Below are positions 13,639 to 64,000 of a stretch of DNA of 64,000 nucleotides, in pieces. Positions within the stretch are counted from its first letter, which is position 1, and each line of letters opens with the position of its first letter. Source of the DNA: Arachidicoccus sp. (GTDB lineage Bacteria; Bacteroidota; Bacteroidia; Chitinophagales; Chitinophagaceae). The notes beneath the pieces were generated by a model, which ran no database searches, was not told the DNA's origin, and saw nothing but the letters and a program-made list of their open reading frames with translations. Both the position numbers and the translations under genes were made by a program. The stretch covers positions 186,001 to 250,000 of the forward strand of contig JAPWKH010000014.1 in NCBI GenBank assembly GCA_028283605.1, in the 5' to 3' direction.

Positions 13639-14533
13639 TAGTTAAATCATAATAATTTGTCACATTATTTGTATTTTTGTATTATGTCGTATTCTATAGA
13701 TTTCCGCAAACAATTATTTAAGATTAAGCGTCAGGAAAATCTCACATTTCAAGAAACTGCAGAAAGATTTGGTATTCCCATAAGGACGTTGTTTAGATGG
13801 CAAAAATGTATAAATCCTAAAACAAAGCGGAACAAACCTTCAACAAAAATAGATATGGAAGCATTGCGAAAAGATGTTGAGCAACATCCGGATCATTATC
13901 AATATGAGAGAGCGAGGAAGTTTGGGGTAGGGCAAAGCACGATATTTTATGCCCTAAAGCGTTTGGGAATCAGTTGTAAAAAAAACGCTGTTTCATCCCA
14001 AAGCAGATGAACTCTCCAGGCTTATCTTCCAACTTAAATTATTGCGCTATGAGCGGATCGAAAAAAGACCTGTTGTTTATTTAGATGAAAGTGGGTTTTC
14101 GGCAGATGCGCCCAGAGGAAATGGCTACAGTCAAAAAGGAAAGAAATGTTATGGCTGTAAAGACTGGCACGCAAGAGGAAGGCTAAACGCTATCGGAGCG
14201 ATAACAAACTTCAAGCTACTCAATGTATGTTTATTTGATTGTAACATAGATGCCGATGTATTCTATGGCTGGCTTACACAGCAATTATTACCTGCTATTG
14301 CTCCAAACTCGGTTATTGTACTTGACAATGCAACATTTCACAAGCGGGATGATGCTTTGCGGGCTGTGCAAAAGCAAGGACATATTTTGGAGTTTCTTCC
14401 ACCTTACAGCCCCGACCTTAATCCAATAGAAAAGAAATGGGCACAGGCCAAAAGTATCAGAAGGAAATTTGGATGTACTCCTGAAGAACTTTTTATTTAC
14501 ACTGATTTATGACGGGTTATTCTGATTTAACTA
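13639..14533 (+). mobile_element. IS630-family insertion sequence, copy 1 (895 bp)
   Basis: Terminal inverted repeats TAGTTAAATCA(T)AATAA / TTATTCTGATTTAACTA, flanking TA (13637-13638 and 14534-14535), DDE transposase; same length as copy 2. Confidence 0.93.
13684..14512 (+). CDS. IS630-family transposase, two overlapping frames (orfA 13684-14010; orfB frame through 14512)
   Basis: HTH ETAERFGIPIRTLFRWQKC; after a +1 shift at A8 (13978-13985) frame 2 reads KKTLFHPKADELSRLIFQLKLLRYERIEKRPVVYLDESGF...VIVLDNATFHK...LPPYSPDLNPIEKKW. Confidence 0.88.
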
Positions 14534-30930: not shown

Positions 30931-31825
30931 TAGTTAAATCATAATAATTTGTTATATTCTTTGTATTTTTGTATTATGTCGTATTCTATAGATTTCCGCA
31001 AACAATTATTTAAGATTAAGCGTCAGGAAAAGCTCACATTTCAAGAAACTGCAGAAAGATTTGGTATTCCCATAAGGACGTTGTTTAGATGGCAAAAATG
31101 TATAAATCCTAAAACAAAGCGGAACAAACCTTCAACAAAAATAGATATGGAGGCATTGCGAAAAGATGTTGAGCAACATCCGGATCATTATCAATATGAG
31201 AGAGCGAGGAAGTTTGGGGTGGGACAAAGCACGATATTTTATGCCCTAAAGCGTTTGGGAATCAGTTGTAAAAAAAACGCTGTTTCATCCCAAAGCAGAT
31301 GAACTCTCCAGGCTTATCTTCCAACTTAAATTATTGCGCTATGAGCGGATCGAAAAAAGACCTGTTGTTTATTTAGATGAAAGTGGGTTTTCGGCAGATG
31401 CGCCCAGAGGAAATGGCTACAGTCAAAAAGGGAAGAAATGTTATGGCTGTAAAGGCTGGCACGCAAGAGGAAGGCTAAACGCTATCGGAGCGATAACAAA
31501 CTTCAAGCTACTCAATGTATGTTTATTTGATTGTAACATAGATGCCGATGTATTCTATGGCTGGCTTACACAGCAATTATTACCTGCTATTGCTCCAAAC
31601 TCGGTTATTGTACTTGACAATGCAACATTTCACAAGCGGGATGATGCTTTGCGGGCTGTGCAAAAGCAAGGACATATTTTGGAGTTTCTCCCACTTTACA
31701 GCCCCGACCTTAATCCAATAGAAAAGAAATGGGCACAGGCCAAAAGTATCAGAAGGAAATTTGGATATACTCCTGAAGAACTTTTTATTTACACTGATTT
31801 ATGACGGTTTATTCTGATTTAACTA
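30931..31825 (+). mobile_element. IS630-family insertion sequence, copy 2 (895 bp)
   Basis: Same TIRs, TA at 30929-30930 and 31826-31827, same length as copy 1 with about a dozen substitutions by eye. Confidence 0.93.
30976..31804 (+). CDS. IS630-family transposase, two overlapping frames
   Basis: Same frame structure as copy 1; A8 run at 31270-31277 at the frame change; LDESGF / LDNATFHK / YSPDLNPIEKKW. Confidence 0.87.
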
Positions 31826-49234: not shown

Positions 49235-49345
49235 GGACGCGTCCCTCCGGGTCGGGCTATTCAGGGCTGCGCTTCGCTACGGCGCTCCGTTACACTTCGC
49301 GCTGCTCCTTCGTCGCACCCTTACTATCCCTCGCGCGCTGCCGCA
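49235..49345. repeat. GC-rich intergenic element (candidate REP/MITE-like sequence)
   Basis: About 110-bp GC-rich block GGACGCGTCCCTCCGGGTCGGGCTATTCAGGGCTGCGCTTCGCTACGGCGCTCC...CTATCCCTCGCGCGCTGCC inside AT-rich spacer; no second copy seen in the window. Confidence 0.45.
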
Positions 49346-49420
49346 ATGCTAAGTTCATTAAATATATTATACATTATCCAACAATGAAGTTTTCACCATT
49401 CATTTATTAACTTATACAAT

Positions 49421-50599
49421 ATGTCAGAAGAAAAAATTTATATTTTCGATACTACACTCCGCGATGGCGAACAAGTTCCGGGCTGTAAACTTAATCCAGA
49501 TGAAAAAGTAAAGCTCGCCATTAAGCTCGAAGAGCTTGGCGTAGATATTATCGAAGCAGGATTTCCGATCTCAAGTCCCGGCGATTTTCAATCCGTCGAA
49601 GAAATTTCCAAAGTCGTCAAAAACGCTACTGTTTGCGGACTCACGCGCGCAGTTCCAAAAGACATTGAAGTAGCTGCCGAAGCATTAAAAAAAGCCGTTC
49701 GCCCGCGCATTCATACAGGCATTGGCGCGAGCGACAATCATATTAAATACAAGTTCAATACCACGCGCGAAAACATTATTGAACGCGCAATTGCAGCCGT
49801 AAAATTTGCACGCAACTTTGTTCCCGATGTAGAATTTTATGCGGAAGATGCAGGACGTGCAGATTTAGTTTTTTTGGCACAACTCATCGAAGCCGTAATT
49901 GCCGCAGGCGCAACAGTTGTGAATATTCCTGATACTACAGGTTTTTGTTTGCCGCATCAATACGGAGATAAAATTGCTTATTTAGTAAATAATGTAAAAG
50001 ACATCGACAAAGCCATCATCTCTTGTCATTGTCATAACGATTTGGGCTTGGCAACCGCAAACTCGCTCTCAGGTGCAATTGCAGGTGCAAGACAGATTGA
50101 ATGTACCATCAACGGATTGGGCGAACGCGCAGGAAACACTTCTCTGGAAGAAGTTGCAATGGCAATTAAGAAACATCCGGAAATTGGTTTTAACACAAGC
50201 ATCGATTCTACAAAATTACTTTCATTAAGCAAGCTGGTTTCCGACACAATGCGTATGCCTGTACAACCGAATAAAGCGATTGTTGGCGATAATGCTTTTT
50301 CGCACTCATCCGGCATTCATCAGGATGGATTTTTGAAAGAAGCAACCACTTACGAAATCATCGATCCAATAGAAGTTGGCGCAGATATTTCCAAAATTGT
50401 TTTAACTGCCCGCAGCGGAAGAAGCGCACTGGCATTTCGTTTCCGCAAATTAGGATTTGATTTTACAAGAGATGAAGTAGACGAATTATACGCGCGTTTC
50501 CTTGAAGTAGCTGATGCGAAAAAAGAAGTAGGCGATGAAGATTTGCAGGAGCTTGCGGGAATATTCAATAAGCAATATTCAACAGACAATATTCAATAA
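49421..50599 (+). CDS. leuA: 2-isopropylmalate synthase, short form
   Basis: [54 protein letters not shown]; 392 aa. Confidence 0.93.
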
Positions 50600-50994
50600 T
50601 GAACGAGCGTGTTTTTGATTTAGAAGATAGATTAATAGATTTTGCATCAAGGATAATTGATATTGTCGAAGCATTGCCAAACACGCGGGCAGGAATCTAT
50701 ATCGCAAATCAATTAGTGCGTTGCGGGCTTGCTCCGGCTTTGCTTTACGGCGAAGCGCAGGCAGCTGAATCAAGAGATGATTTTATTCATAAAATGAAAA
50801 TCGCTTTAAAAGAATTAAAAGAAACAAGAGTTTGTTTAAAATTAATTTTAAGAAAAGAGATGATTAAACCTATCACAAGACCAAGTGAAGTGATGAAAGA
50901 AAATGAAGAATTAATCGCTATCAGCTCAAAAAGCATTAATACGGCAAGACAAAATATTATAAAGTCAAAAAAAAGAGAACTCTCAATAAAATGA
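50599..50994 (+). CDS. Four-helix-bundle protein (23S rRNA intervening-sequence/S23 family)
   Basis: IANQLVRCGLAPALLYGEAQAAESRDDFIHKMKIALKELKETRVCLKLI. Confidence 0.8.
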   Translation: MNERVFDLEDRLIDFASRIIDIVEALPNTRAGIYIANQLVRCGLAPALLYGEAQAAESRDDFIHKMKIALKELKETRVCLKLILRKEMIKPITRPSEVMKENEELIAISSKSINTARQNIIKSKKRELSIK

Positions 50995-51040
50995 ATATTG
51001 AATATTTATTATTGAGTATTTTTTATTTAAAAAAAGTGAT

Positions 51041-52438
51041 ATGGCAAAAACATTATTCGACAAAATTTGGGAAAAGCATATTGTAAAAGAAATCGAAGGT
51101 GGTCCTTCGGTCTTGTATATTGATACGCACTTTATTCATGAAGTTACAAGTCCGCAAGCGTTCAAAGGTCTGGAAAAGCGTGGTCTGCCTTTGTTTCGAC
51201 CAAAACAAATCGTAGCAACCGCCGATCACAATGTTCCTACATTGCATCAGGAATTACCGATTAAAGAAGAACTTTCAAGAATACAAGTGCAAACATTGAA
51301 AGATAATTGCGAAAAATTCGGCGTTGAATTATACGGTTTGGGACATCCATATCAAGGCATCGTTCATGTGATTGGTCCCGAACTCGGTGTTACACAACCG
51401 GGCAGCACGTATGTTTGCGGCGATAGCCACACATCAACGCATGGCGCATTTGGAAGCATTGCATTCGGCATTGGAACAAGCGAAGTGGAAATGGTAATGG
51501 CAACGCAATGCTTGCTGCAAAGCCATCCGAAATTGATGCGTATAAGCGTTGATGGGGAATTGCATAAAGGCGTTACATCAAAAGACATTGTTTTATATGT
51601 TATAGCACAAATTTCTGCAAGCGGCGCAACAGGTTATGCCGTTGAGTTTGCGGGTTCTGCCATTCGTTCGTTGAGCATGGAAGCTCGTATGACGATTTGC
51701 AACATGAGCATCGAAATGGGCGCACGTTGCGGAATGATTGCACCCGATGAAATTACTTTTGATTATATCAAAGGTCGTGAGTTTGCACCCAAAGGCGAAG
51801 AATGGGAAAAGAAATTAGCGTTTTGGAAAACATTGTATTCCGATGATGAAGCAACATTCGATAAAGAGTATCATTTCAAAGCAGAGGACATCGAACCGAT
51901 GATTACTTACGGAACGAATCCGGGAATGGGCATCGGCGTAAGCGGACAAGTGCCGGAGTTTTCCACTATTGATGAACGCGATAAGCCTTCATTTGAAAAG
52001 TCCATTCATTACATGGGGTTGCATGCAGGCGAAAAAATCAAAGGACATAAAGTTGATTATGTATTTATCGGAAGCTGTACCAATAGCCGTATTGAGGATT
52101 TAAGACAAGTTGCGGCATTTGTAAAAGGCAAGAAGAAATCAGACGATGTTACCGTTTGGATTGTTCCGGGCAGCAAGCAAGTGGAAGCGCAGGCAAAAGA
52201 AGAAGGTATTGATAAAATATTTGAAGAAGCAGGCTTTCAATTGCGTCAACCTGGTTGTAGTGCATGTTTGGGCATGAATGAAGATAAAATTCCGGCAGGA
52301 AAATATTGCATTTCTACATCCAACAGAAACTTTGAAGGAAGACAAGGGCCAAACGCAAGAACCATGCTCGCAAGTCCGCTTACAGCCGCAGCCGCAGCAA
52401 TTACAGGTGTTATAAGCGATGTGAGGGAACTCTTTTGA
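51041..52438 (+). CDS. leuC: 3-isopropylmalate dehydratase large subunit
   Basis: Aconitase motifs [40 protein letters not shown]. Confidence 0.95.
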
Positions 52439-52483
52439 TTTATGATTTTGGATTTATGATTTGTGATTTAATCAAACGATGTC

Positions 52484-52763
52484 GTGGATAAAATAGAATT
52501 GCAAAAACGAACACAAGCGTTTCAGATTAATGTACAGAACATTGCCAAGAGCAAAATCAACAGACGATTTTATTAATAAAGTTGCGATAATTATTGAAGA
52601 AGCAGATGAATCGTTGTATTGTTTAGAAATTATTCACGAAGTAAAATTGATTGATAAAAATTCAATGATTAAAAATTTAATAAAGGAAGCAAATGAACTT
52701 ACGGCAATTTTTGTAGCAATCAGTAAAACCACAAAAGCAAAAAAAGCAAATCATAATTCATAA
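52484..52763 (+). pseudogene. Four-helix-bundle (S23-type) protein, internally deleted and frameshifted
   Basis: Frame 1 VDKIELQKRTQAFQIN then frame 2 YRTLPRAKSTDDFINKVAIIIEEADESLYCLEIIHEV; the helix-1/2 segment between RTLP and RAKSTDDF is missing. Confidence 0.65.
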
Positions 52764-52777
52764 TTCACAAATTATAA

Positions 52778-53452
52778 ATGAATAAGATAGCACAATCATT
52801 CGATGCAGTATCTGAAAAATACGATAAGCAAAGACCTTTACTCATTCCTTGCTTTGACGATTTCTATGGTATCGCATTGGAATTATCCAATGAAGCAAAG
52901 GATGTAAAAAACATTTTAGACATTGGTGCGGGCACAGGATTGATGAGCGCTTTCTTCGCAGAGAAATATCCCGATGCCGAAATTACGCTTGTAGATTTTT
53001 CAGAAGATATGTTGAATAAAGCAAAAGACAGGTTTAAAGGAAATGATAAGATTCATTACCTGCAAGCAGATTTTTCAACTGTAGAATTTGAAGATAATCA
53101 TTATGATTTAGTCGTTTCAGGTTTGGCAATTCATCACTTAAAACACAACTTGAAGAAGCTGTTGTTCGAAAAAATTTATTATGCGTTAAAAATAAACGGA
53201 ATCTTCATCAACGCAGACCAAGTGAAAGGAGCAACAGAATTTGCTGAAAGAATTTATACAGAAAAATGGCGCAATCATGTATTGAACGCACCGTTGAGTG
53301 AAGAAGATAAACAGAATACTTTTAAAAGAGTATCGCTCGATATTATGGCGCCGTTGAAAACACAATTAGATTGGCTAAGGGGAGCTGGTTTTCTTGAGGC
53401 AAATTGTTTTTATCAATATTTCAACTTTGTGGTTTTTGCCGCAAAAAAATAA
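52778..53452 (+). CDS. Class I SAM-dependent methyltransferase
   Basis: ILDIGAGTGLMSAFFAEKYPDAEITLVDFSEDML. Confidence 0.92.
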   Translation: MNKIAQSFDAVSEKYDKQRPLLIPCFDDFYGIALELSNEAKDVKNILDIGAGTGLMSAFFAEKYPDAEITLVDFSEDMLNKAKDRFKGNDKIHYLQADFSTVEFEDNHYDLVVSGLAIHHLKHNLKKLLFEKIYYALKINGIFINADQVKGATEFAERIYTEKWRNHVLNAPLSEEDKQNTFKRVSLDIMAPLKTQLDWLRGAGFLEANCFYQYFNFVVFAAKK

Positions 53453-53519
53453 TAAAAGTTAAGTTTTAGGTTATAAGTGGATTTTTTAAAATCAGACATT
53501 ATATAAATAATAAACTATT

Positions 53520-54170
53520 ATGGGCATTATAGTAAATCTCGAAGAAGATAAAAAGAAAGCAGGCGCGGCAAAGTTTCAGTCCGAAAGAAAAATTATTCAG
53601 TCAGCGGCAGTTCCTATTGAACTGGAAAATATCGATACAGACCAAATTATTCCTGCGCGTTTTCTGAAAGCTACTACACGCGAAGGTTTTGGAAAAAATT
53701 TGTTTCGTGACTGGCGTTACGAAAACGATGATGAAACAAAACCTGTGAAAGATTTTGCATTGAACAATAAAATTTATTCAGGCAAAATTCTTGTTGCTGG
53801 AAAAAATTTCGGTTGCGGTTCTTCACGCGAACATGCTGCTTGGGCAATTAAAGATTACGGCTTCGATGCAGTCGTTTCGAGCTTTTTCGCAGACATCTTT
53901 AAAAACAATGCATTAAATAATTTCTTGTTGCCTGTGCAAGTGAGCGAAGATTTTTTACAAAAATTATTCGACGCTATTCATAAAGACACAAACGCAGCCA
54001 TTGAAATCAATCTTGAAGAGCAATACATCAAAATCGTTGCTACAGGCGATCAGGAAAGTTTTGATATTAATCAGTACAAAAAGACTTGTTTGTTGAATGG
54101 CTTTGATGATATTGATTACTTGCTGAATATGCGTGAAGAAATAGAAGCATTTGAAAAAAATAAAGTCTAA
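53520..54170 (+). CDS. leuD: 3-isopropylmalate dehydratase small subunit
   Basis: [48 protein letters not shown]. Confidence 0.95.
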
Positions 54171-54718
54171 TGAAATTAGTATATATCATTCATGGATACA
54201 AAGCTTCCGCAGATCATCATTGGTTTGGCTGGCTAAAAAATGAATTGGGAAAAAGAAATATTACTGCAATTATTCTTTCTATGCCCAATTCTGAAAATCC
54301 TTTGAAAGATGAGTGGGTAAGTTATTTGCAAAAAAACATTATTATAGGTAGAAACACTTTTATTGTTGCGCACAGTTTGGGCTGCATAGCTACTTTATTA
54401 TTTATAAATAAAACAAATGCTAAGATTGGCGGTTTTATTGGAGTATCAGGTTTTGATGAGAAACTGAAAGGTATGCCTGATCTTGATAATTTTATTGACA
54501 ATGATATAGTTTATGAAAAAATCATTGCCAACGTTTCGAAACGTATTGTATTTGCTTCTCCTGAAGATTACATTGTTCCATTTCAACTTTCAGAAAAGTT
54601 GGCTAAGGATATAAAAGCACCGCTAATCAGCGTTCCCAATGCAGGACATTTTATGGCAGATGATGGGTATGTGTCTTTTCCTGAATTATTAAAAGAAATT
54701 AAAAAAATAATAGAGTAA
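54170..54718 (+). CDS. Alpha/beta hydrolase, RBBP9/YdeN family
   Basis: YIIHGYKASADHHWFGWLKNELG, AHSLGCIATLLF, PNAGHFMADDGY. Confidence 0.88.
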   Translation: MKLVYIIHGYKASADHHWFGWLKNELGKRNITAIILSMPNSENPLKDEWVSYLQKNIIIGRNTFIVAHSLGCIATLLFINKTNAKIGGFIGVSGFDEKLKGMPDLDNFIDNDIVYEKIIANVSKRIVFASPEDYIVPFQLSEKLAKDIKAPLISVPNAGHFMADDGYVSFPELLKEIKKIIE

Positions 54719-54723
54719 TAATA

Positions 54724-56190
54724 GTGCAAATAATAGCCAATTATATCACCGTAAAGCAAAATAATTTTGAAATAAAGGATATATTATTTTCTTTAAAAGA
54801 TAATGAAAACCTTGTAATTACAGGCCCATCGGGAAGTGGCAAAACTTCTCTTGCAAAGGCTTTTTGTGGTCAATTATTTATTACAGGTGATTTAAAAATT
54901 GTATATAATAAAGAAAATAATTTACTTGCGAAAGCCGTGTATGTTGAGCAACGCTATTCTATAAAAAATAGAAGTAATACAATTGATGGTTATTACCAGC
55001 AACGATATAATAGTTCTGACAATGAAGACAGTTATACGGTTTTGGAAGAATTGAAATTTATATTGGATGATGAACAAAGAGTAGATTTTTTGCTAAATGA
55101 ATTATCCATTGCTTATTTGAAAAACAAGCCATTACTTCAATTATCAAGCGGGGAACACAAACGTTTCCAATTAATCAAGGCTCTGCTGAACCCGGCACAA
55201 TTGATGATTTTGGATGAACCGTTTATAGGGTTAGATGTTGCAAGTAGAAAAAAACTAAACGATATTTTAAGTAACGTTTCTGAAAAGGGAACGAAATTTA
55301 TTATTATTGCGGGTGCACATCATCATTTTCCCGATTGCGTTACACATGTTTTGGAATTGGAAAATGGCAGGCAAAAAACTTTTATCAAGAAAGAAAATTT
55401 TGTTGCCACGCATCAGGCCGCCACATATTTCTTTGATAGTTCATCTTTGCCTCTGCAACACAATAATTGGAATTTTGAGAATGCAATTTTAATAAAAAAT
55501 GCTACGGTAAAATATGGTGAAAGAACAATCTTAAATAATATTAACTGGCAGGTAAAGAGAGGAGAGCGTTGGTTGTTGAAAGGCAAAAATGGCGCGGGCA
55601 AATCAACTCTAATGAGTTTGGTTTCCGGCGATAATCCGCAGGCTTATGCGAATGAAATTTATTTGTTCGATAAACGTAGAGGTTCGGGCGAAAGCATTTG
55701 GGATATTAAGAAAAATATTGGTTTTGTTTCACCTGAGTTATATGCATTTTTCGACAAGAACATTTCTTGTTTCGATACGGTGGCATCAGGCTATTTTGAT
55801 ACCATAGGCTTGTATAAAAAATTGTCGCAGGAGCAGATCAATCATATCAACGATTGGATGAAAGCCTTGAACGTAGCGGATTTGGCGCAAAAACGTTTAG
55901 CAAATGTTTCTTCGGGAATGCAACGCTTATTTTTATTAATCCGTGCCTTTATCAAAAATCCGCCGCTCTTGATTTTCGACGAACCTTGTCAGGGGTTGGA
56001 CGAATTTCAAACAGAAGCATTTGTGAAATTGGTAGATGATATTTGTGAACGGACAGATACGAGCGTTGTGTACATCAGTCATTATGAAAATGAAATTCCA
56101 AATTGTGTAACACAGGTTTTGGAATTAGAAAATGGGAATCAAAAAATTTATTTTTTCAATAAAAAACATTCAACACAATTAACTCAATAA
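54724..56190 (+). CDS. Dual-NBD ABC ATPase (ModF/PhrA-like)
   Basis: Two Walker A (GPSGSGKTS, GKNGAGKST), signatures LSSGEHKR and VSSGMQRL, Walker B LMILDEPF and LLIFDEPC; no TM domains; GTG start. Confidence 0.85.
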   Translation: MQIIANYITVKQNNFEIKDILFSLKDNENLVITGPSGSGKTSLAKAFCGQLFITGDLKIVYNKENNLLAKAVYVEQRYSIKNRSNTIDGYYQQRYNSSDNEDSYTVLEELKFILDDEQRVDFLLNELSIAYLKNKPLLQLSSGEHKRFQLIKALLNPAQLMILDEPFIGLDVASRKKLNDILSNVSEKGTKFIIIAGAHHHFPDCVTHVLELENGRQKTFIKKENFVATHQAATYFFDSSSLPLQHNNWNFENAILIKNATVKYGERTILNNINWQVKRGERWLLKGKNGAGKSTLMSLVSGDNPQAYANEIYLFDKRRGSGESIWDIKKNIGFVSPELYAFFDKNISCFDTVASGYFDTIGLYKKLSQEQINHINDWMKALNVADLAQKRLANVSSGMQRLFLLIRAFIKNPPLLIFDEPCQGLDEFQTEAFVKLVDDICERTDTSVVYISHYENEIPNCVTQVLELENGNQKIYFFNKKHSTQLTQ

Positions 56191-56191
56191 A

Positions 56192-57307
56192 ATGGAAAAG
56201 AACATAACAGTAATTTTTGGCGATGGCATTGGGCCAGAAGTTACGCAGCAATCAATTAAAATATTAAATGCAATTGCGGAGCAATTCGGGCATAAATTTA
56301 ATTACGATCCTCAATTGATGGGAGCTATTGCCATTGATGAAACAGGAAATCCTTTACCGGATGCAACTATAGAAAGTGCATTGAAAAGCGATGCTGTATT
56401 ATTTGGAGCAATTGGGCATCCGAAATACGACAACGACCCAACTGCTAAAGTGCGTCCCGAACAAGGCTTACTAAAGCTTCGTAAGTCATTACAGTTGTTT
56501 GCAAACCTACGTCCCATCAATGCTTATCCTGCATTAAATCATTTATCTCCATTGAAACCGGAAAGAATGGAAGGTGCAGATTTTGTTATTTTTCGTGAAC
56601 TCACGGGTGGCATTTATTTCGGCGAAAAGAAAATCAACGATGAAAAAACTTTCGCTTCAGATTTGTGTGCATATTCAAAAGAAGAGATTGAACGCATCAC
56701 GCACCTTGCCTTTCAATTAGCACAGAAAAGAAAGAAAAAAATAACGTTGGTCGATAAAGCCAATGTTTTAGAAACATCACGGTTATGGCGCAAAGTAGTG
56801 CAAGAAATTTCACAGCAATACAATGATGTTGCAGTTGATTATATGTTCGTAGATAATGCTTCGATGCAAATCATCGTAAATCCGAAGCAATTTGATGTTA
56901 TATTAACAGAAAATATGTTTGGCGATATCATCAGCGACGAAGCAAGTGTACTTAGTGGTTCTCTTGGCTTGTTGCCGTCTTCGTCCATCGGTACGGGAAC
57001 TGCCTTGTTCGAGCCGATTCACGGTTCATATCCGCAAGCGGCAGGAAAAGACATCGCGAACCCAATCGGATCAATACTTTCGGCTGCTATGATGCTTGAA
57101 TATTTTGGTATGAGCGAAGAAGCTACTTTAGTCCGCAAGGCTGTTGCATGGACATTGGCAAACGGTTTTGTAACACAGGATATTGACCCGACTAATAACT
57201 ATGCAACAAGCGTAATCGGTGATTTGATCAAAGATTTTGTAGAACAAAAATCTCCGGCTGAAATCAATAAAAAATACGTTGAATTAGGAAAATCAACAAT
57301 TATTTAA
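56192..57307 (+). CDS. leuB: 3-isopropylmalate dehydrogenase
   Basis: VIFGDGIGPEVT, FRELTGGIYFGE, ENMFGDIISDEASVLSGSLGLLPSSSIG. Confidence 0.95.
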   Translation: MEKNITVIFGDGIGPEVTQQSIKILNAIAEQFGHKFNYDPQLMGAIAIDETGNPLPDATIESALKSDAVLFGAIGHPKYDNDPTAKVRPEQGLLKLRKSLQLFANLRPINAYPALNHLSPLKPERMEGADFVIFRELTGGIYFGEKKINDEKTFASDLCAYSKEEIERITHLAFQLAQKRKKKITLVDKANVLETSRLWRKVVQEISQQYNDVAVDYMFVDNASMQIIVNPKQFDVILTENMFGDIISDEASVLSGSLGLLPSSSIGTGTALFEPIHGSYPQAAGKDIANPIGSILSAAMMLEYFGMSEEATLVRKAVAWTLANGFVTQDIDPTNNYATSVIGDLIKDFVEQKSPAEINKKYVELGKSTII

Positions 57308-57418
57308 TCATTGAAACGCTATTGGGTATTGTAATATTAATTTGCTGAAACCTTCATTATTATTGAGTTTCATAAAATTTACTAAATGTTCATCAGCGTA
57401 AAAGCCATTACATTTTAA

Positions 57419-57450
57419 TTTGAATAAAAAAAATTGTATAAATACATTTG
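57419..57450 (+). promoter_or_regulatory. Putative Bacteroidota-type promoter P1 for the ilv leader (TTTG-N20-TACATTTG)
   Basis: TTTG 57419-57422, TACATTTG 57443-57450; same boxes and spacer as the leuA promoter candidate. Confidence 0.6.
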
Positions 57451-57537
57451 ACGCGTAGACGGTAGAAAATAAAAGAATGTATTTTATGACGGATTTATCA
57501 GATTAAAATAAATAGTTCTTTAAAAAATATTATTTTC

Positions 57538-57545
57538 TACATTTG
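57538..57545 (+). promoter_or_regulatory. Possible second promoter -7 box TACATTTG (P2), poor -33 match
   Basis: TACATTTGACG is a direct repeat of 57443-57453; 16 nt upstream of the leader ATG. Confidence 0.35.
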
Positions 57546-57561
57546 ACGTCTCGTAAAGATC

Positions 57562-57660
57562 ATGGACAAAAGTGTAAAAAATAAAATCAGTATATCAGTC
57601 ATCCTAATTATAGCGGTGGTTGTCATTATTCCTTCATCAGGAAGTGGTTTTATTTTGTAA
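57562..57660 (+). CDS. BCAA leader peptide, 32 aa
   Basis: [32 protein letters not shown]; 15 of 32 residues are Ile/Val/Leu, 10 of 11 in the run V13-I23; directly upstream of an antiterminator/terminator pair and ilvD. Confidence 0.85.
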
Positions 57661-57692
57661 ACATTCAAAATAAAGTTTTGAAAACCACTTCC
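57640..57692 (+). promoter_or_regulatory. Antiterminator hairpin (2:3 pairing) of the ilv attenuator
   Basis: GGAAGTGGTTTT (57640-57651, inside the leader ORF) is an exact 12-nt reverse complement of AAAACCACTTCC (57681-57692). Confidence 0.82.
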
Positions 57693-57715
57693 GAAACGAA
57701 GTGGTTTTTTGTTTT
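57681..57715 (+). terminator. Attenuator terminator (3:4 pairing) upstream of ilvD
   Basis: AAAACCACTTC - CGAAAC - GAAGTGGTTTT perfect 11-bp stem, 6-nt loop, followed by TTGTTTT. Confidence 0.9.
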
Positions 57716-57746
57716 AAAAGATTACTATTCAAATAAAAAATATGAA

Positions 57747-59435
57747 ATGAGCGAATTAAACAAATATTCCAAAACGCTTACGCAGGATGAAACACAGCCT
57801 GGCGCGCACGCACAATATTATGCAATTGGGTTTACTGATGAAGATTTCAACAAAGCGCAGATCGGAATTGTAAGCATGGGATGGGACGGTAATCCGTGCA
57901 ATATGCATCTAAATGACTTGGCAACTAAAGTGCGTGAAAGTGTGAATGATACGGAAGGTTTATTGGGACTTCGTTTTTATACAATTGGTGTAAGTGATGG
58001 CATGAGCAACGGCACGCCCGGCATGCGATACAGCCTCGTAAGCCGCGACTTAATCGCAGACAGCATAGAAACTGTTGCAGGCGCACAATACTATGACGGA
58101 CTTATTACCATTCCCGGCTGCGATAAAAATATGCCTGGTTCATTGATGGCGATGGCGCGTTTAAACAGGCCTTCTATTATGTTGTACGGAGGCACCATTG
58201 CAACCGGACATTATAAAGATAAACATGATTTAAATATAGTATCTGCATTTGAAGCTTTAGGACAAAAGATTGCAGGCAACATTAGTCAGGAAGATTTTAA
58301 AGGAATTATTCGCAATTCCTGTCCCGGCGCCGGCGCTTGCGGTGGCATGTACACTGCTAATACAATGGCAAGCGCTGCCGAAGCATTAGGAATGAGTTTG
58401 CCTTATTCTTCCTCCAATCCTGCACTAAGTGAAGATAAGCAAAATGAATGTATTGCAGCAGGCAAAGCCATACGGCTTTTGTTGGAAAAAGATATTAAGC
58501 CTAAAGATATTATGACCCGTAAAGCATTTGAAAATGCTGTAACCGTTATCATGGTATTGGGCGGAAGCACAAATGCGGTATTGCATTTATTGGCTGTTGC
58601 AAAAGCGGCAGGTGTAGATTTCAAGATTGATGACTTTCAGAAAATCAGCGATAAAATTCCTATGTTGGCAGACTTTAAGCCAAGCGGCAAATACCTTATG
58701 GAAGATTTGCATCAATACGGTGGTATTCCGGCAGTGATGAAATATTTATGGAAGAATGGTTTACTGCATGGAGATTGCTTAACTGTAACAGGAAAAACAG
58801 TTGCGGAGAATTTGGAAGAAGCAAAAGACTTGGATTTTAATGAACAAAAAATAGTGCAACCTTTGGAAAATCCTATCAAGAAAACCGGTCACTTACAAAT
58901 ATTGTACGGCAATCTTGCAGAAAAAGGAAGCGTTGCAAAAATTACCGGTAAAGAAGGAGAGCGCTTTGAAGGAACTGCGCGAGTATTCGACGGCGAACAT
59001 GATTTAATACAAGGGCTTTCAAGCGGACGCGTTCGCGCAGGCGATGTAGTTGTAATAAAAAATATCGGACCGAAAGGCGCGCCCGGAATGCCGGAAATGC
59101 TGAAACCTACCAGCGCCATCATTGGTTCAGGTTTGGGTAAATCAGTAGCATTGATTACAGACGGGCGTTTCAGCGGCGGTACGCACGGTTTTGTTGTAGG
59201 GCATATTACGCCGGAAGCTGTTGAAGGCGGATTAATTGGCTTGGTTAATGATGATGATATCATTGAAATAGATGCCACAAAAAATACAATCACTTTAAAA
59301 GTATCGGAAGAAGAAATTGCAAAACGAAGAGCTGCATGGAAAAAGCCTGAACCGAAAGCAAGAAATGGTGTGTTGTATAAATATGCAAAATTCGTAAAAT
59401 CAGCAAGCGAAGGTTGTGTAACGGATGAGGATTAA
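57747..59435 (+). CDS. ilvD: Dihydroxy-acid dehydratase
   Basis: [58 protein letters not shown]; start at MSELNKYSK, not the track's 57678 which lies beside the terminator. Confidence 0.95.
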
Positions 59436-59462
59436 TATTTTCAAAAAATACATTGATTCAAT

Positions 59463-61208
59463 ATGGAAACTTTAGATATTACAAAAGAAACAACAGCTGA
59501 AAAGCCGCAGCCCGCAAAGGTTTCGCTCAGCGGCAGTCAAGCCGTTTTGGAAGCATTGATTGCGGAAAATGTAAAAACAGTTTTCGGTTATCCCGGCGGC
59601 GCTATCATGCCTATATACGATGCGCTATATGATTATAAAGATAAGCTTGAGCACATACTGGTGCGTCACGAACAAGGCGGAATCCACGCTGCACAAGGCT
59701 TTGCACGTGCATCCGGAGAAGTCGGTGTAGTATTTGCAACAAGCGGCCCTGGCGCAACCAATCTGGTTACGGGCATTGCAGATGCAATGATCGACAGTAC
59801 GCCATTGGTATGTATAACAGGACAAGTATTTGCTCATCTTTTGGGTACGGATGCTTTTCAGGAAACAGATGTGATAAACATAACAACGCCGGTTACCAAA
59901 TGGAATTATCAGGTAACGGAAGCGTCGGAAATTCCAAGTGTTTTGGCGAAAGCCTTTTACATCGCGCGTTCCGGCCGTCCCGGCCCAGTGTTGGTAGATA
60001 TTACCAAAAATGCACAAGTCGAAAAATTCGATTACAAAGGTTACATTCCTTGCAATCATATTCGCAGTTATTTGCCAAAGCCGAAAGTGAGAAAAAAATT
60101 TATTGCTGAAGCGGCAAAACTTATTAATGAAGCAAAGAAACCATTCGTATTATTTGGACAAGGAATTATTTTAGGCGAAGCAGAAAAAGAATTTCAAACA
60201 TTTATTGAGAAAGCCGGTCTTCCTTCTGCATTTACCATTATGGGCGAAAGCGCTATTCCTTCCGATCATCCGTTAAATGTGGGAATGCTGGGTATGCATG
60301 GCAATTATGCACCGAATGTTTTGACGAATGAATGCGATGTGTTAATAGCTATTGGTATGCGCTTCGATGATCGCGTTACCGGGAGATTGGATAAATATGC
60401 GAAGCAGGCAAAAATTATTCATCTGGATATTGACCCTGCTGAAATTGATAAGAACGTGAAAACAACTGTTCCTGTTTGGGGCGATTGTAAAGAAACATTG
60501 CCTTTGCTTACCGAATTAATCAATAAAACAGAACACACGGCATGGCTGCAGCGTTTTCGTGATTTGGAACAAGAAGAAATAAAACAAGTTATCAACGAAG
60601 AATTAAATCCGTCCACAGAAATTATGTCGATGGGCGAGGTGATTAAAGTGTTGAATAAATTGACGAATGAAGATGCAATAATTGTAACCGATGTAGGGCA
60701 GCATCAAATGGTAGCTTGCCGCTATGCGAAGTTTAAAAATTCGCGCAGCAATATTACTTCCGGCGGATTGGGAACAATGGGTTTTGGTTTGCCCGCAGCT
60801 ATTGGTGCAAAATACGGTGCACCAGAAAGAACAGTTGTTTCAATCAGCGGCGACGGTGGCTTTCAAATGACGATACAAGAGTTGGGAACAATTATGCAAT
60901 TCGGTGCAGATGTAAAAATTCTTATTTTAAACAATCAGTTTTTAGGAATGGTGCGTCAATGGCAGGAATTATTTAACGACAGAAGATATTCTTTCGTAAA
61001 CATTACTTCGCCCGATTATATAACAGTTGCGAAAGGTTACGGCATTGCAGGCAAAAGAATCGACAAGAGAGAAGATTTGGAAAGTTCGTTACAAGAAATG
61101 TTGAGTTATAAGGGTTCTTATCTTTTGGAAGTAATGGTTGGGAAAGAAAATAATGTATTTCCAATGGTACCGCAAGGTTGCAGCGTAAGTGAGATCAGAT
61201 TAAAGTAA
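59463..61208 (+). CDS. ilvB: Acetolactate synthase large subunit
   Basis: TPP enzyme: VFGYPGGAIMPIYDAL, RHEQGGIHAAQGFARASG, GDGGFQMTIQELGT. Confidence 0.96.
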   Translation: METLDITKETTAEKPQPAKVSLSGSQAVLEALIAENVKTVFGYPGGAIMPIYDALYDYKDKLEHILVRHEQGGIHAAQGFARASGEVGVVFATSGPGATNLVTGIADAMIDSTPLVCITGQVFAHLLGTDAFQETDVINITTPVTKWNYQVTEASEIPSVLAKAFYIARSGRPGPVLVDITKNAQVEKFDYKGYIPCNHIRSYLPKPKVRKKFIAEAAKLINEAKKPFVLFGQGIILGEAEKEFQTFIEKAGLPSAFTIMGESAIPSDHPLNVGMLGMHGNYAPNVLTNECDVLIAIGMRFDDRVTGRLDKYAKQAKIIHLDIDPAEIDKNVKTTVPVWGDCKETLPLLTELINKTEHTAWLQRFRDLEQEEIKQVINEELNPSTEIMSMGEVIKVLNKLTNEDAIIVTDVGQHQMVACRYAKFKNSRSNITSGGLGTMGFGLPAAIGAKYGAPERTVVSISGDGGFQMTIQELGTIMQFGADVKILILNNQFLGMVRQWQELFNDRRYSFVNITSPDYITVAKGYGIAGKRIDKREDLESSLQEMLSYKGSYLLEVMVGKENNVFPMVPQGCSVSEIRLK

Positions 61209-61224
61209 TGATGATTTAATAAAA

Positions 61225-61512
61225 ATGATAACGGAAATAGCCATATTAAATATTAAGCAAAATCAATCGGAAGAATATTTAAAATCTTTCGCGAAAGCAG
61301 CGTCAATCATTACTGCAAGCGAAGGATATATTTCTCATGAACTACAAAAATGTGTTGAGCATGAAGATAAATTTTTGCTTACCGTAAAATGGCAAACATT
61401 AGAAAATCATACGGAAGGTTTCAGAAAAAGTGAAGCTTATCAGGAATGGAAGAGATTGTTACATCATTACTATGATCCATTTCCGGAAGTAGAACATTAT
61501 TCTCTATTATAA
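61225..61512 (+). CDS. Antibiotic biosynthesis monooxygenase (ABM)-domain protein
   Basis: About 95 aa, ITASEGYISHELQKCVEHEDKFLLTVKWQTLENHTEGFRKSEAYQEW. Confidence 0.82.
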   Translation: MITEIAILNIKQNQSEEYLKSFAKAASIITASEGYISHELQKCVEHEDKFLLTVKWQTLENHTEGFRKSEAYQEWKRLLHHYYDPFPEVEHYSLL

Positions 61513-61550
61513 ACATATCACGTATTACTCAGAACTTATTACCAAATAAA

Positions 61551-62141
61551 ATGAACAAACAAGAATTCACAATATCTGTATATACCGAAAACCAAATCGG
61601 CTTGCTCAACCGCATTGCCATCATGTTTTCGCGCAGAAAAATCAATGTCGAGAGTCTTAATGTTTCTCCTACGGAAATTGAAGGCATCTCTCGCTTTACC
61701 ATCGTTATCAACGAAGCCGAAGATGTAGTTAGAAAACTTGCAAGACAAATTGAAAAGCAAATCGAAGTATTGAAAGTTTATTACAATACCAATGAAGAAG
61801 TTATTTGGCAGGAGTTGGCTTTATACAAAGTGCCTACCGATGTGATTTCCGAAAAAGCAAAAGTGGAGCGGCTTTTACGCGAATATGGTGCGCAGGCTGT
61901 TGTTATTCGCAGTGATTATACAGTGTTTGAAACTGTTGGTCATCGTGAAGAAATCGATGGATTACTCGAAGCGTTAGCGCCCTATGGATTGATTGAATTT
62001 GTACGCAGCGCACGCGTAGCTATTATCAAAGATAGCGAAGGGTTTCACAATAAATTAAAAGAATTCGAAAACAGAGAACCTTCAGAAGCGGTTATCGAAA
62101 ACGAATTTTTAAATAAACAAAGCGAAGTATTTACGATGTAA
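61551..62141 (+). CDS. ilvN: Acetolactate synthase small subunit
   Basis: ACT domain FTISVYTENQIGLLNRIAIMFSRRKINVESLNVSPTE. Confidence 0.94.
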   Translation: MNKQEFTISVYTENQIGLLNRIAIMFSRRKINVESLNVSPTEIEGISRFTIVINEAEDVVRKLARQIEKQIEVLKVYYNTNEEVIWQELALYKVPTDVISEKAKVERLLREYGAQAVVIRSDYTVFETVGHREEIDGLLEALAPYGLIEFVRSARVAIIKDSEGFHNKLKEFENREPSEAVIENEFLNKQSEVFTM

Positions 62142-62166
62142 TTTGTTCTAGCTTTAAGATTTCACA

Positions 62167-62634
62167 ATGCAGTATTCTATAAAATATATCAGAAAAAACA
62201 GAGAATTATTTTTAAAATTACTTGACGGTTTAACCATTGAACAACTTAATAAAATACCGACAGGATTTAATAATAATATTATATGGAATTTCGGTCACAT
62301 TATTGTTTCCACGCAATTATTAGCGTACGTTCGCTCCGGCGTACAAGTCGATTTTGAAGTAAGCTTCCAAGAAAAATTCAAAAGCGGAACAAGGCCGGAA
62401 AGTTTTATTACACAAGAAGAAATTGAAGAATTAAAAGAACTGTTATACTCAACTTTGGATCTAATAGAAGAAAATGAAAAAAAGAATTATTTTGACAAAG
62501 TAATTCCTTTTTCAACTCAAACGTACGGATTTGAAATGAATACATTTGAAGAAGTTTTGGCTTGCATTCAATCGCACGAATCGTTGCATTACGGATACGC
62601 TTTGGCTCAAAAAAGATTAGTAAATAATTTATAA
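62167..62634 (+). CDS. DinB-family protein
   Basis: LLDGLTIEQLNKIPTGFNNNIIWNFGHIIVSTQLL ... HESLHYGYALAQKRLV; DinB metal-site-like His positions. Confidence 0.82.
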   Translation: MQYSIKYIRKNRELFLKLLDGLTIEQLNKIPTGFNNNIIWNFGHIIVSTQLLAYVRSGVQVDFEVSFQEKFKSGTRPESFITQEEIEELKELLYSTLDLIEENEKKNYFDKVIPFSTQTYGFEMNTFEEVLACIQSHESLHYGYALAQKRLVNNL

Positions 62635-62690
62635 TCGATTACTTTTTAAACCATATTCAAAAACAATAAATCTTAATTAAAAAACAAACA

Positions 62691-63737
62691 ATGGCAAAAT
62701 TAAATTTCGGCGGTGTTGAAGAAAATGTAGTAACACGCGAAGAATTTCCGCTTGCGAAAGCACAGGAAGTATTACAGAATGAAACAGTAGCAGTTATCGG
62801 TTACGGTGTTCAAGGACCGGGACAAGCATTGAATCAAAGAGATAACGGTATCAATGTAATCGTTGGTCAAAGAAAAAACTCAAAAACATGGGATAAAGCT
62901 ATCGCTGACGGATTTGTTGAAGGACAAACTTTATTCGAAATAGAAGAAGCATTGGAAAAAGGAACAATCATCTGTTACCTATTGAGCGATGCTGCCCAAA
63001 TCGAATTGTGGCCTACCGTAAAAAAGCATTTGACTGCCGGGAAAGCTTTGTATTTCTCTCACGGTTTCGGTATTACATTCAACGAGCAAACAGGCATTAT
63101 TCCGCCTGCAGATGTTGATGTATTCTTAGTTGCACCAAAAGGCTCGGGAACATCTTTACGCAGAATGTTTTTGCAAGGCCGCGGCTTGAACAGTTCGTTC
63201 GCAATTTTCCAGGATGCCACAGGCAAAGCGAAAGACAGAGTAATTGCTTTAGGCATTGCAGTAGGAAGCGGTTATTTGTTCGAAACCGATTTCAGAAAAG
63301 AAGTATTCAGCGATTTAACCGGCGAACGCGGAACTTTGATGGGTGCAATACAGGGAATTTTTGCTGCACAATATCAGGTATTGCGCGACAAAGGTCATAC
63401 GCCTTCTGAGGCATTCAACGAAACAGTAGAAGAATTGACACAGTCATTGATGCCGTTGGTTGCGGAGAACGGGATGGATTGGATGTATGCGAACTGTTCA
63501 ACAACAGCACAACGCGGCGCGTTGGATTGGTGGAAAAAATTCCGCGATGCTACATTGCCGGTCTTTACCGAATTATATGAAAGCGTAGCAACCGGTAAAG
63601 AATCTAAGCGTTCTATCGACAGCAATTCTCAACCCGATTATCGCGAAAAACTAAATGAAGAATTGAAAGAGCTTCGTGAAAGCGAATTATGGCAGGCAGG
63701 TAAAACGGTAAGAAGTTTAAGACCCGAGAATAATTAG
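62691..63737 (+). CDS. ilvC: Ketol-acid reductoisomerase (class I size)
   Basis: VAVIGYGVQGPGQALNQRDNGINVIVGQRKNSKTW, FSHGFGITF, VAPKGSGTSLRRMF, EVFSDLTGERGTLMGAIQG. Confidence 0.95.
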   Translation: MAKLNFGGVEENVVTREEFPLAKAQEVLQNETVAVIGYGVQGPGQALNQRDNGINVIVGQRKNSKTWDKAIADGFVEGQTLFEIEEALEKGTIICYLLSDAAQIELWPTVKKHLTAGKALYFSHGFGITFNEQTGIIPPADVDVFLVAPKGSGTSLRRMFLQGRGLNSSFAIFQDATGKAKDRVIALGIAVGSGYLFETDFRKEVFSDLTGERGTLMGAIQGIFAAQYQVLRDKGHTPSEAFNETVEELTQSLMPLVAENGMDWMYANCSTTAQRGALDWWKKFRDATLPVFTELYESVATGKESKRSIDSNSQPDYREKLNEELKELRESELWQAGKTVRSLRPENN

Positions 63738-63765
63738 TTAGTTTAAGGATTTTACATTAGATAAT

Positions 63766-63800
63766 AAAGGTTTGGGATAAATGTCTCAAACCTTTTTATT
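63766..63800 (+). terminator. Rho-independent terminator after ilvC
   Basis: AAAGGTTTGGGA/TCTCAAACCTTT stem (one G:U), 6-nt loop, T-tract. Confidence 0.78.
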
Positions 63801-63803
63801 TTA

Positions 63804-64000
63804 TAGTTAAATCATAATAATTTGTCATATTATTTGTATTTTTGTATTATGTCGTATTCTATAGATTTCCGCAAACAATTATTTAAGATTAAGCGTCAGG
63901 AAAATCTCACATTTCAAGAAACTGCAGAAAGATTTGGTATTCCCATAAGGACGTTGTTTAGATGGCAAAAATGTATAAATCCTAAAACAAAGCGGAACAA
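63804..64000 (+). mobile_element. IS630-family insertion sequence, copy 3 (left end; continues beyond window)
   Basis: TAGTTAAATCATAATAATTTGTC... followed by the same orfA start ATGTCGTATTCTATAGATTTCCGC; TA at 63802-63803. Confidence 0.93.

Follow-up and report, generated by a model that had tools for sequence, protein, structure and literature searches.

In front of ilvD, the stretch of 64,000 nucleotides of Arachidicoccus sp. analysed here (the window) very probably carries a ribosome-mediated transcription attenuator, which senses charged Ile/Val(/Leu) tRNA. The locus contains a short ORF with a run of Ile, Val and Leu codons, alternative RNA arms, an intrinsic terminator and a promoter-like box. 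The layout recurs in relatives, the arms co-vary, and in other operons the leader codons match the amino acid made. A preliminary description from the sequence had read the region as an attenuator of the enterobacterial ilv kind. This reading is supported by the conserved ORF, the co-varying arms, the promoter box and the match of codons and operon.

Layout of the attenuator locus

The leader ORF, its Ile/Val/Leu run and segments 2, 3 and 4 (Table 1) agree with the preliminary description in every coordinate, base for base. Segment 3 is the exact 12-nt complement of segment 2. The perfect 11-bp terminator 3:4 with U-tract was also seen as claimed; its stem comprises 12 bp including a flanking G-T pair and is followed by the T-rich tail TTTGTTTT. 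As expected of an attenuator, the window locus combines a short ORF rich in codons for the product amino acids of the operon, an intrinsic terminator after this ORF and ahead of the first structural gene, and a mutually exclusive antiterminator, which uses the 5' arm of the terminator and is kept by co-variation. Counting both strands, the 64-kb window contains six terminator-like hairpins whose stems reach 9 bp or more. A third exact copy of an arm (12 nt) lies upstream in this one alone.

Table 1 Features of the attenuator locus and the ilv operon, with further leaders of the same genome
Feature	Position or locus	Strand	Basis or remark
Predicted Bacteroidota-type promoter: GTTCTTT (about -33) and TACATTTG (-7 box, TAnnTTTG, 57538-57545)	57515..57545	+	
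Leader ORF, ilvL-like, 32 aa	57562..57660	+	ATG 57562, stop TAA 57658-57660
Possible segment 1, partner of segment 2 without ribosome	57578..57590	+	fold of 57552-57660; weak
Sensor run, Ile/Val/Leu codons 13-23	57598..57630	+	translation; codon-position entropy across loci
Segment 2, antiterminator 5' arm, GGAAGTGGTTTT	57640..57651	+	Gly-Ser-Gly-Phe codons within leader ORF; 2:3 co-variation
Segment 3, common to antiterminator (2:3) and terminator (3:4), AAAACCACTTCC	57681..57692	+	co-variation in both helices
Segment 4, GAAGTGGTTTT (57698-57708), with U-rich tract: terminator 3' arm	57698..57716	+	folding; 3:4 co-variation
ilvD, dihydroxy-acid dehydratase, first structural gene past the attenuator	57747..59435	+	TIGR00110, 746 bits
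ilvB, acetolactate synthase large subunit	59463..61208	+	TIGR00118
ilvN, acetolactate synthase small subunit	61551..62141	+	TIGR00119
ilvC, ketol-acid reductoisomerase	62691..63737	+	TIGR00465
His leader of the same genome, MNKKSHTHHHHFLSEG	L158		start GTG; before hisG
Phe leader of the same genome, MFNSPAYYFRFYFAFEFGSKRIGLCKN	L219		before prephenate dehydratase gene
Trp leader of the same genome, MFINKVNNFWWWQTNSTSGMFE	L244		before trpE

Folding of the RNA, proposed earlier as a check, placed the attenuator region 3.35 sd below dinucleotide shuffles, and none of 200 shuffles was as stable. By the same kind of shuffling, z was -4.3 for 2:3 alone and -3.8 for 3:4 alone. With segments 2-4 only, 2:3 is favoured (-18 vs -14.9 kcal/mol for 3:4). 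For the pairing of segments 1 and 2, the fold of 57552-57660 gave a z of only -1.2; own against swapped partners across loci gave z = -6.0, a figure that still contains the kinship among the loci.

The predicted -7 box sits 24 nt 5' of the leader ATG. TAnnTTTG is described as the -7 element of Bacteroidota in a transcriptome paper (PMC9723704). Of 55 loci, 30 have it no more than 90 nt 5' of the start of the leader, compared with 6.6% of shuffled upstream regions, and in related leaders the motif (A)GTTCTTT(G), i.e. GTTCTTTG, mostly lies about 23 nt 5' of it. A second TACATTTG box, likewise followed by GACG, is located at 57444-57451, 118 nt 5' of the leader ATG, and is a possible second promoter.

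Downstream, the preliminary description had given the operon as ilvD-ilvB-ilvN-ilvC. These genes and their order were found again, but two interposed genes had been missed, encoding an ABM-domain protein (between ilvB and ilvN) and a DinB_2 protein (between ilvN and ilvC). On the 5' side, the leader is preceded by leuA, leuC, leuD and leuB with a few inserted genes. The stretch from leuB to the leader showed no intrinsic terminator, so that transcription of the leu genes may also run into the attenuator. Searches for a leader 5' of leuA in the window and for a plasmid copy of the attenuator region were negative.

Other elements of the window were recorded as well. Just 5' of leuA lies a GC-rich element (49235-49350, CCCTCCGGGTCGGGCTATTCAGGGCTGCGCTTCGCTACGGCGCTCCG...) with 19 further partial copies in the genome (67-93% identity, both orientations), and between leuA and leuC a gene for a 23S rRNA-intervening-sequence (four-helix) protein (50599-50994, PF05635). 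Two near-identical DDE_3 transposase ORFs (14042-14512 and 31334-31804) bracket a gene block for glycoside hydrolases and SusC/D-like proteins.

Conservation and co-variation in relatives

The conserved Ile/Val-rich ORF that the preliminary description had proposed to look for in relatives was detected. Scanning of relatives yielded 80 ilvD loci, 38 of which have an Ile/Val-rich ORF followed by a terminator; in about half of the 80 loci no leader was found in the stretches scanned. The combination of a short ILV-rich ORF and a terminator occurs 54 times in 977 kb (window and ilvD loci), compared with two to three times in order-2 Markov resamples. A few of the scan rows are not true leaders (L003 minus, L073 minus, L061, the first of L030 and the first of L079). 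Segment 2 was scored in relatives by duplex energies, as an exact-match scan was too strict.

A typical related leader reads ...IIIVVVVIIIPALHGGG. Among five sampled congeners, four have the leader (L089, L093, L094, L095), ending ...G(S/G)GF(I/V)L or similar; for the fifth, G002, none was found in the stretch examined. Niastella populi (L014), a cultivated relative, likewise has a leader of its own. In most relatives the leader stands between leuB and ilvE, with ilvE preceding ilvD, and the operon behind it is ilvE-ilvD-ilvB-ilvN-ilvC. In the lineage of the window the leader lies directly 5' of ilvD and ilvE is not at this place; ilvE-type matches elsewhere in this genome are below the family cut-off.

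For 49 distinct sensor runs, the mean codon entropy at positions 1, 2 and 3 was 1.00, 0.25 and 1.40 bits. Position 2 is almost always T, and positions 1 and 3 are variable. Judged from these codons, selection on the leader keeps the I/V/L class and not the nucleotides. The run VVVIIIP (GTGGTGGTGATTATTAT[T/C]CC) is near-identical in E. coli ilvL (L270, 523-621) and in Chitinophagaceae leaders (L020), a likeness which is probably convergence of codon choice.

Compensatory changes, which the preliminary description had suggested for arms 2, 3 and 4, were found in an alignment of 44 leaders, in both helices. Relatedness of the loci inflates the shuffle statistics, so that the following are supportive figures and not probabilities: the 2:3 core is paired in 87.1% of the cells, compared with 44-58% after sliding and 83.6% after shuffling (0/500), its covariation score is 0.140 against 0.096 for shuffles (0/500), and the 3:4 helix shows changes on both sides at 10 of 11 pairs, with 60 such cells against 16.5 shuffled. 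Segment 3 pairs with its own partners at -14.1 kcal/mol and with swapped ones at -11.3 kcal/mol (z = -9.6, 0/20000), an average cost of 2.8 kcal/mol for a swap among loci. The false leaders L003 minus and L073 minus stayed in this test, which should make it slightly conservative. Within the genus of the window, alignment columns 55/113/127 changed jointly from G-C-G to A-U-A. The arms read GGAAGTGG/CCACTTCC/GAAGTGG in this genus, GGAGGATAGG/GCCTTCCTCC/GAGGAAGGC in Chitinophaga, AGAAGCGGC/AGCCGTTTCA/TGAAGCGGCT in Chryseobacterium, AGGGGCGA/CCGCCCCG/TCGGGGCGG in Chryseolinea and GGAGGTGG/CCGCCTCC/AGGCGG in one further clade.

These data bear on the question whether the hairpin is a constitutive terminator, which ends readthrough from leuB or a small RNA, the ORF and the third arm being there by chance or for another use. 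An intrinsic terminator is indeed present between leuB and ilvD. A simple terminator, however, needs neither a third arm nor an ILV ORF, whereas in dozens of loci the third arm changes together with the arms of the terminator and occupies a constant position within a conserved ILV ORF. An always-on terminator between promoter and ilvD would furthermore silence the operon. We regard this explanation as very unlikely.

A tandem arrangement was observed in ten Flavobacteriia-type loci (L074 4616-4875, L077 4620-4878, L080 4615-4874; L126, L127, L128, L133, L279, L282, L293). There, a first Ile/Val leader and its terminator are followed by a second leader with a terminator of its own, ahead of ilvE, of ilvD or of an ilvN-like gene. 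For tandem leader attenuators, a literature search returned chiefly the mgtCBR case of Salmonella.

Proposed mechanism

We infer that the leader is translated, that ribosomes stall in it and that readthrough changes as a consequence. Transcription would start about 10-15 nt 5' of the leader ATG, and a ribosome would trail RNA polymerase through the leader. When Ile and Val are plentiful, it would reach the stop at 57658 and mask segment 2, so that 3:4 pairs and transcription ends near 57710. With Ile/Val-tRNA in short supply, it would stall in codons 13-23. Segment 2 would then emerge first and capture segment 3 as antiterminator, the terminator would be blocked, and ilvD-ilvB-ilvN-ilvC would be transcribed.

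The two states were compared by folding the RNA transcribed so far, up to the terminator loop, with a ribosome footprint of 30 nt blocked. In this model, segment 3 is paired upstream with a mean probability of 0.74 (window 0.78) for a ribosome in the sensor run and of 0.02 (window 0.00) for a ribosome at the stop. Segment 2 of the window is thus predicted to be masked by the ribosome at the stop and not by the one in the run. The switch between both states was obtained for 51 of 54 loci and the opposite switch for none; L100, whose terminator had been mis-set in the equilibrium run, was left out. Folding of the complete RNA to equilibrium favours the terminator in most relatives, even when the ribosome is stalled, and only 20 of 55 loci shift. 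Hence, the switch must be kinetic. Without a ribosome, the co-transcriptional model gives antitermination (0.80 for the window); the classical state, in which lack of translation leads to termination, is not well supported by it.

The leader might instead act mainly by translation, by coupling to or unmasking the initiation of ilvD, or its peptide might act in trans. Translation of a leader near a gene is suggested to increase re-initiation in several phyla including Bacteroidetes (PMC4833913), and a trans-acting leader peptide is reported for Sinorhizobium (PMC7298713). At the window locus, however, 86 nt and a U-tailed terminator separate the leader stop from the start of ilvD, and what is kept across loci is the I/V/L class alone, not the peptide sequence. 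A mainly translational action is as improbable as a constitutive terminator.

Leaders of other amino acid operons

Leaders consisting of ORF and terminator before biosynthetic genes were also surveyed in a wider, evenly sampled set of Bacteroidia genomes. His runs precede hisG in 14 of 28 cases, Phe/Tyr runs pheA in 8 of 17 and Trp runs trpE in 14 of 21; the thresholds for His and Phe were fixed after a first look, the one for Trp before. None of 66 in-gene control stretches had a leader, and combinations of codon and operon off the diagonal are almost empty. For thrA, a matching Thr/Ile leader was found in only one of 14 sampled loci. The genome of the window itself has all four leader types (ilv, his, phe, trp; Table 1).

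A covariance model of the ilv leader matched 63 of 300 Bacteroidota genomes at E <= 0.01. Of the best matches inspected outside the family, some lie before ilvE, ilvD and ilvN-like genes, and further ones before genes read as ilvA and thrA from their first residues. Other matches of the R1 model in the genome of the window (E >= 0.048) gave no convincing leader in the loci examined. Two leaders found by the model, MTTNNTIIITIITTGINLGGR and MYNSTIIITIIITTGRNLAEE (L135 minus strand 1492; L142 1495), precede an aspartokinase-type gene; they resemble E. coli ThrL in Thr/Ile content and ending.

It is likely that attenuators specific for single amino acids form a phylum-wide set in Bacteroidota, for the most part uncatalogued (ilv, his, phe, trp, ilvA and occasionally thr), including tandem ilv attenuators in Flavobacteriaceae-like families.

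Comparison with known systems

With ilvL/ilvXGMEDA of E. coli the locus shares its logic, the leader length of 32 aa, a V/I run closed by Pro and a terminator that precedes the ilv genes. In contrast to E. coli ilvL, the Bacteroidota leader would control leu-adjacent ilv(E)DBNC, has a predicted TAnnTTTG promoter and lies outside the sequence family PF08046 (IlvGEDA_leader). The window leader reached 8.7 bits (E = 1.8) at a cut-off of 25 bits, and E. coli IlvL, scored in the same search, 61.5 bits.

Bacteroid-trp RNA (RF01692; Weinberg 2010, PMC2864571) is likewise a Bacteroidetes leader RNA, located before trp genes. It differs by Trp instead of Ile/Val codons and by its sequence; it matched L225, where a Trp leader (MNNTWWWK...) is present, and left the window unmatched. 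No Rfam family, T-box and RF01692 included, scored above its gathering threshold in 50000-64000, and membership in T-box, riboswitch or Bacteroid-trp families was rejected on this ground. The ilv, his and phe leader loci did not match Rfam either. That segment 3 is exposed by another sensor (T-box, riboswitch or RNA-binding protein), with the ORF incidental, is the least credible explanation, since, although such sensors too use the antiterminator/terminator exchange present here, no Rfam family matched at threshold in 50000-64000, the leader is short and kept only as I/V/L codons and arms, and the codons in other operons change with the amino acid made.

BCAA leaders or uORFs with attenuators before ilv genes are described for ilvB of Actinobacteria in three papers (PMC1262725; Corynebacterium PMC10272879, PMC11857589); they are likened here by description and not by sequence, the phylum being unrelated and the operon order another. 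According to a study of 2010, leader systems had been known from Proteobacteria and Actinobacteria alone, apart from the Firmicutes case that it described itself (PMC2965389). For Bacteroides thetaiotaomicron, short ORFs reminiscent of leader peptides were reported (PMC7366714). Leader-peptide attenuators were noted in Flavobacterium psychrophilum in 2021 (PMC9723704), in a main text that names neither a family nor arms nor an ilv case. The preliminary description had supposed attenuators of this type to be sparsely documented in Bacteroidota. Sparse they are, but not undocumented, as RF01692 (PMC2864571) and the F. psychrophilum cases (PMC9723704) came earlier.

Our literature search found no prior ilv attenuators in Bacteroidetes. 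The 2004 FEMS comparative study of Vitreschak and others is said to be one that may include Bacteroidetes cases. This kind of attenuator is known, and the predicted ilv family in Bacteroidota appears new with regard to the sources consulted.

The control of amino acid operons in Bacteroidota is poorly described, and the ilv, his and phe leaders have no Rfam or Pfam family. As an example of ribosome-controlled transcription termination in this phylum, the locus is clean and testable, and the leaders can also help to annotate operons by the amino acid to which they respond. If the predicted action is true, polymerase and ribosome would be close enough for stalling to decide termination. Bacteroidota mostly initiate translation without Shine-Dalgarno sequences. 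If the phylum-wide set is true, transcription and translation would be closely coupled despite the mostly missing Shine-Dalgarno initiation.
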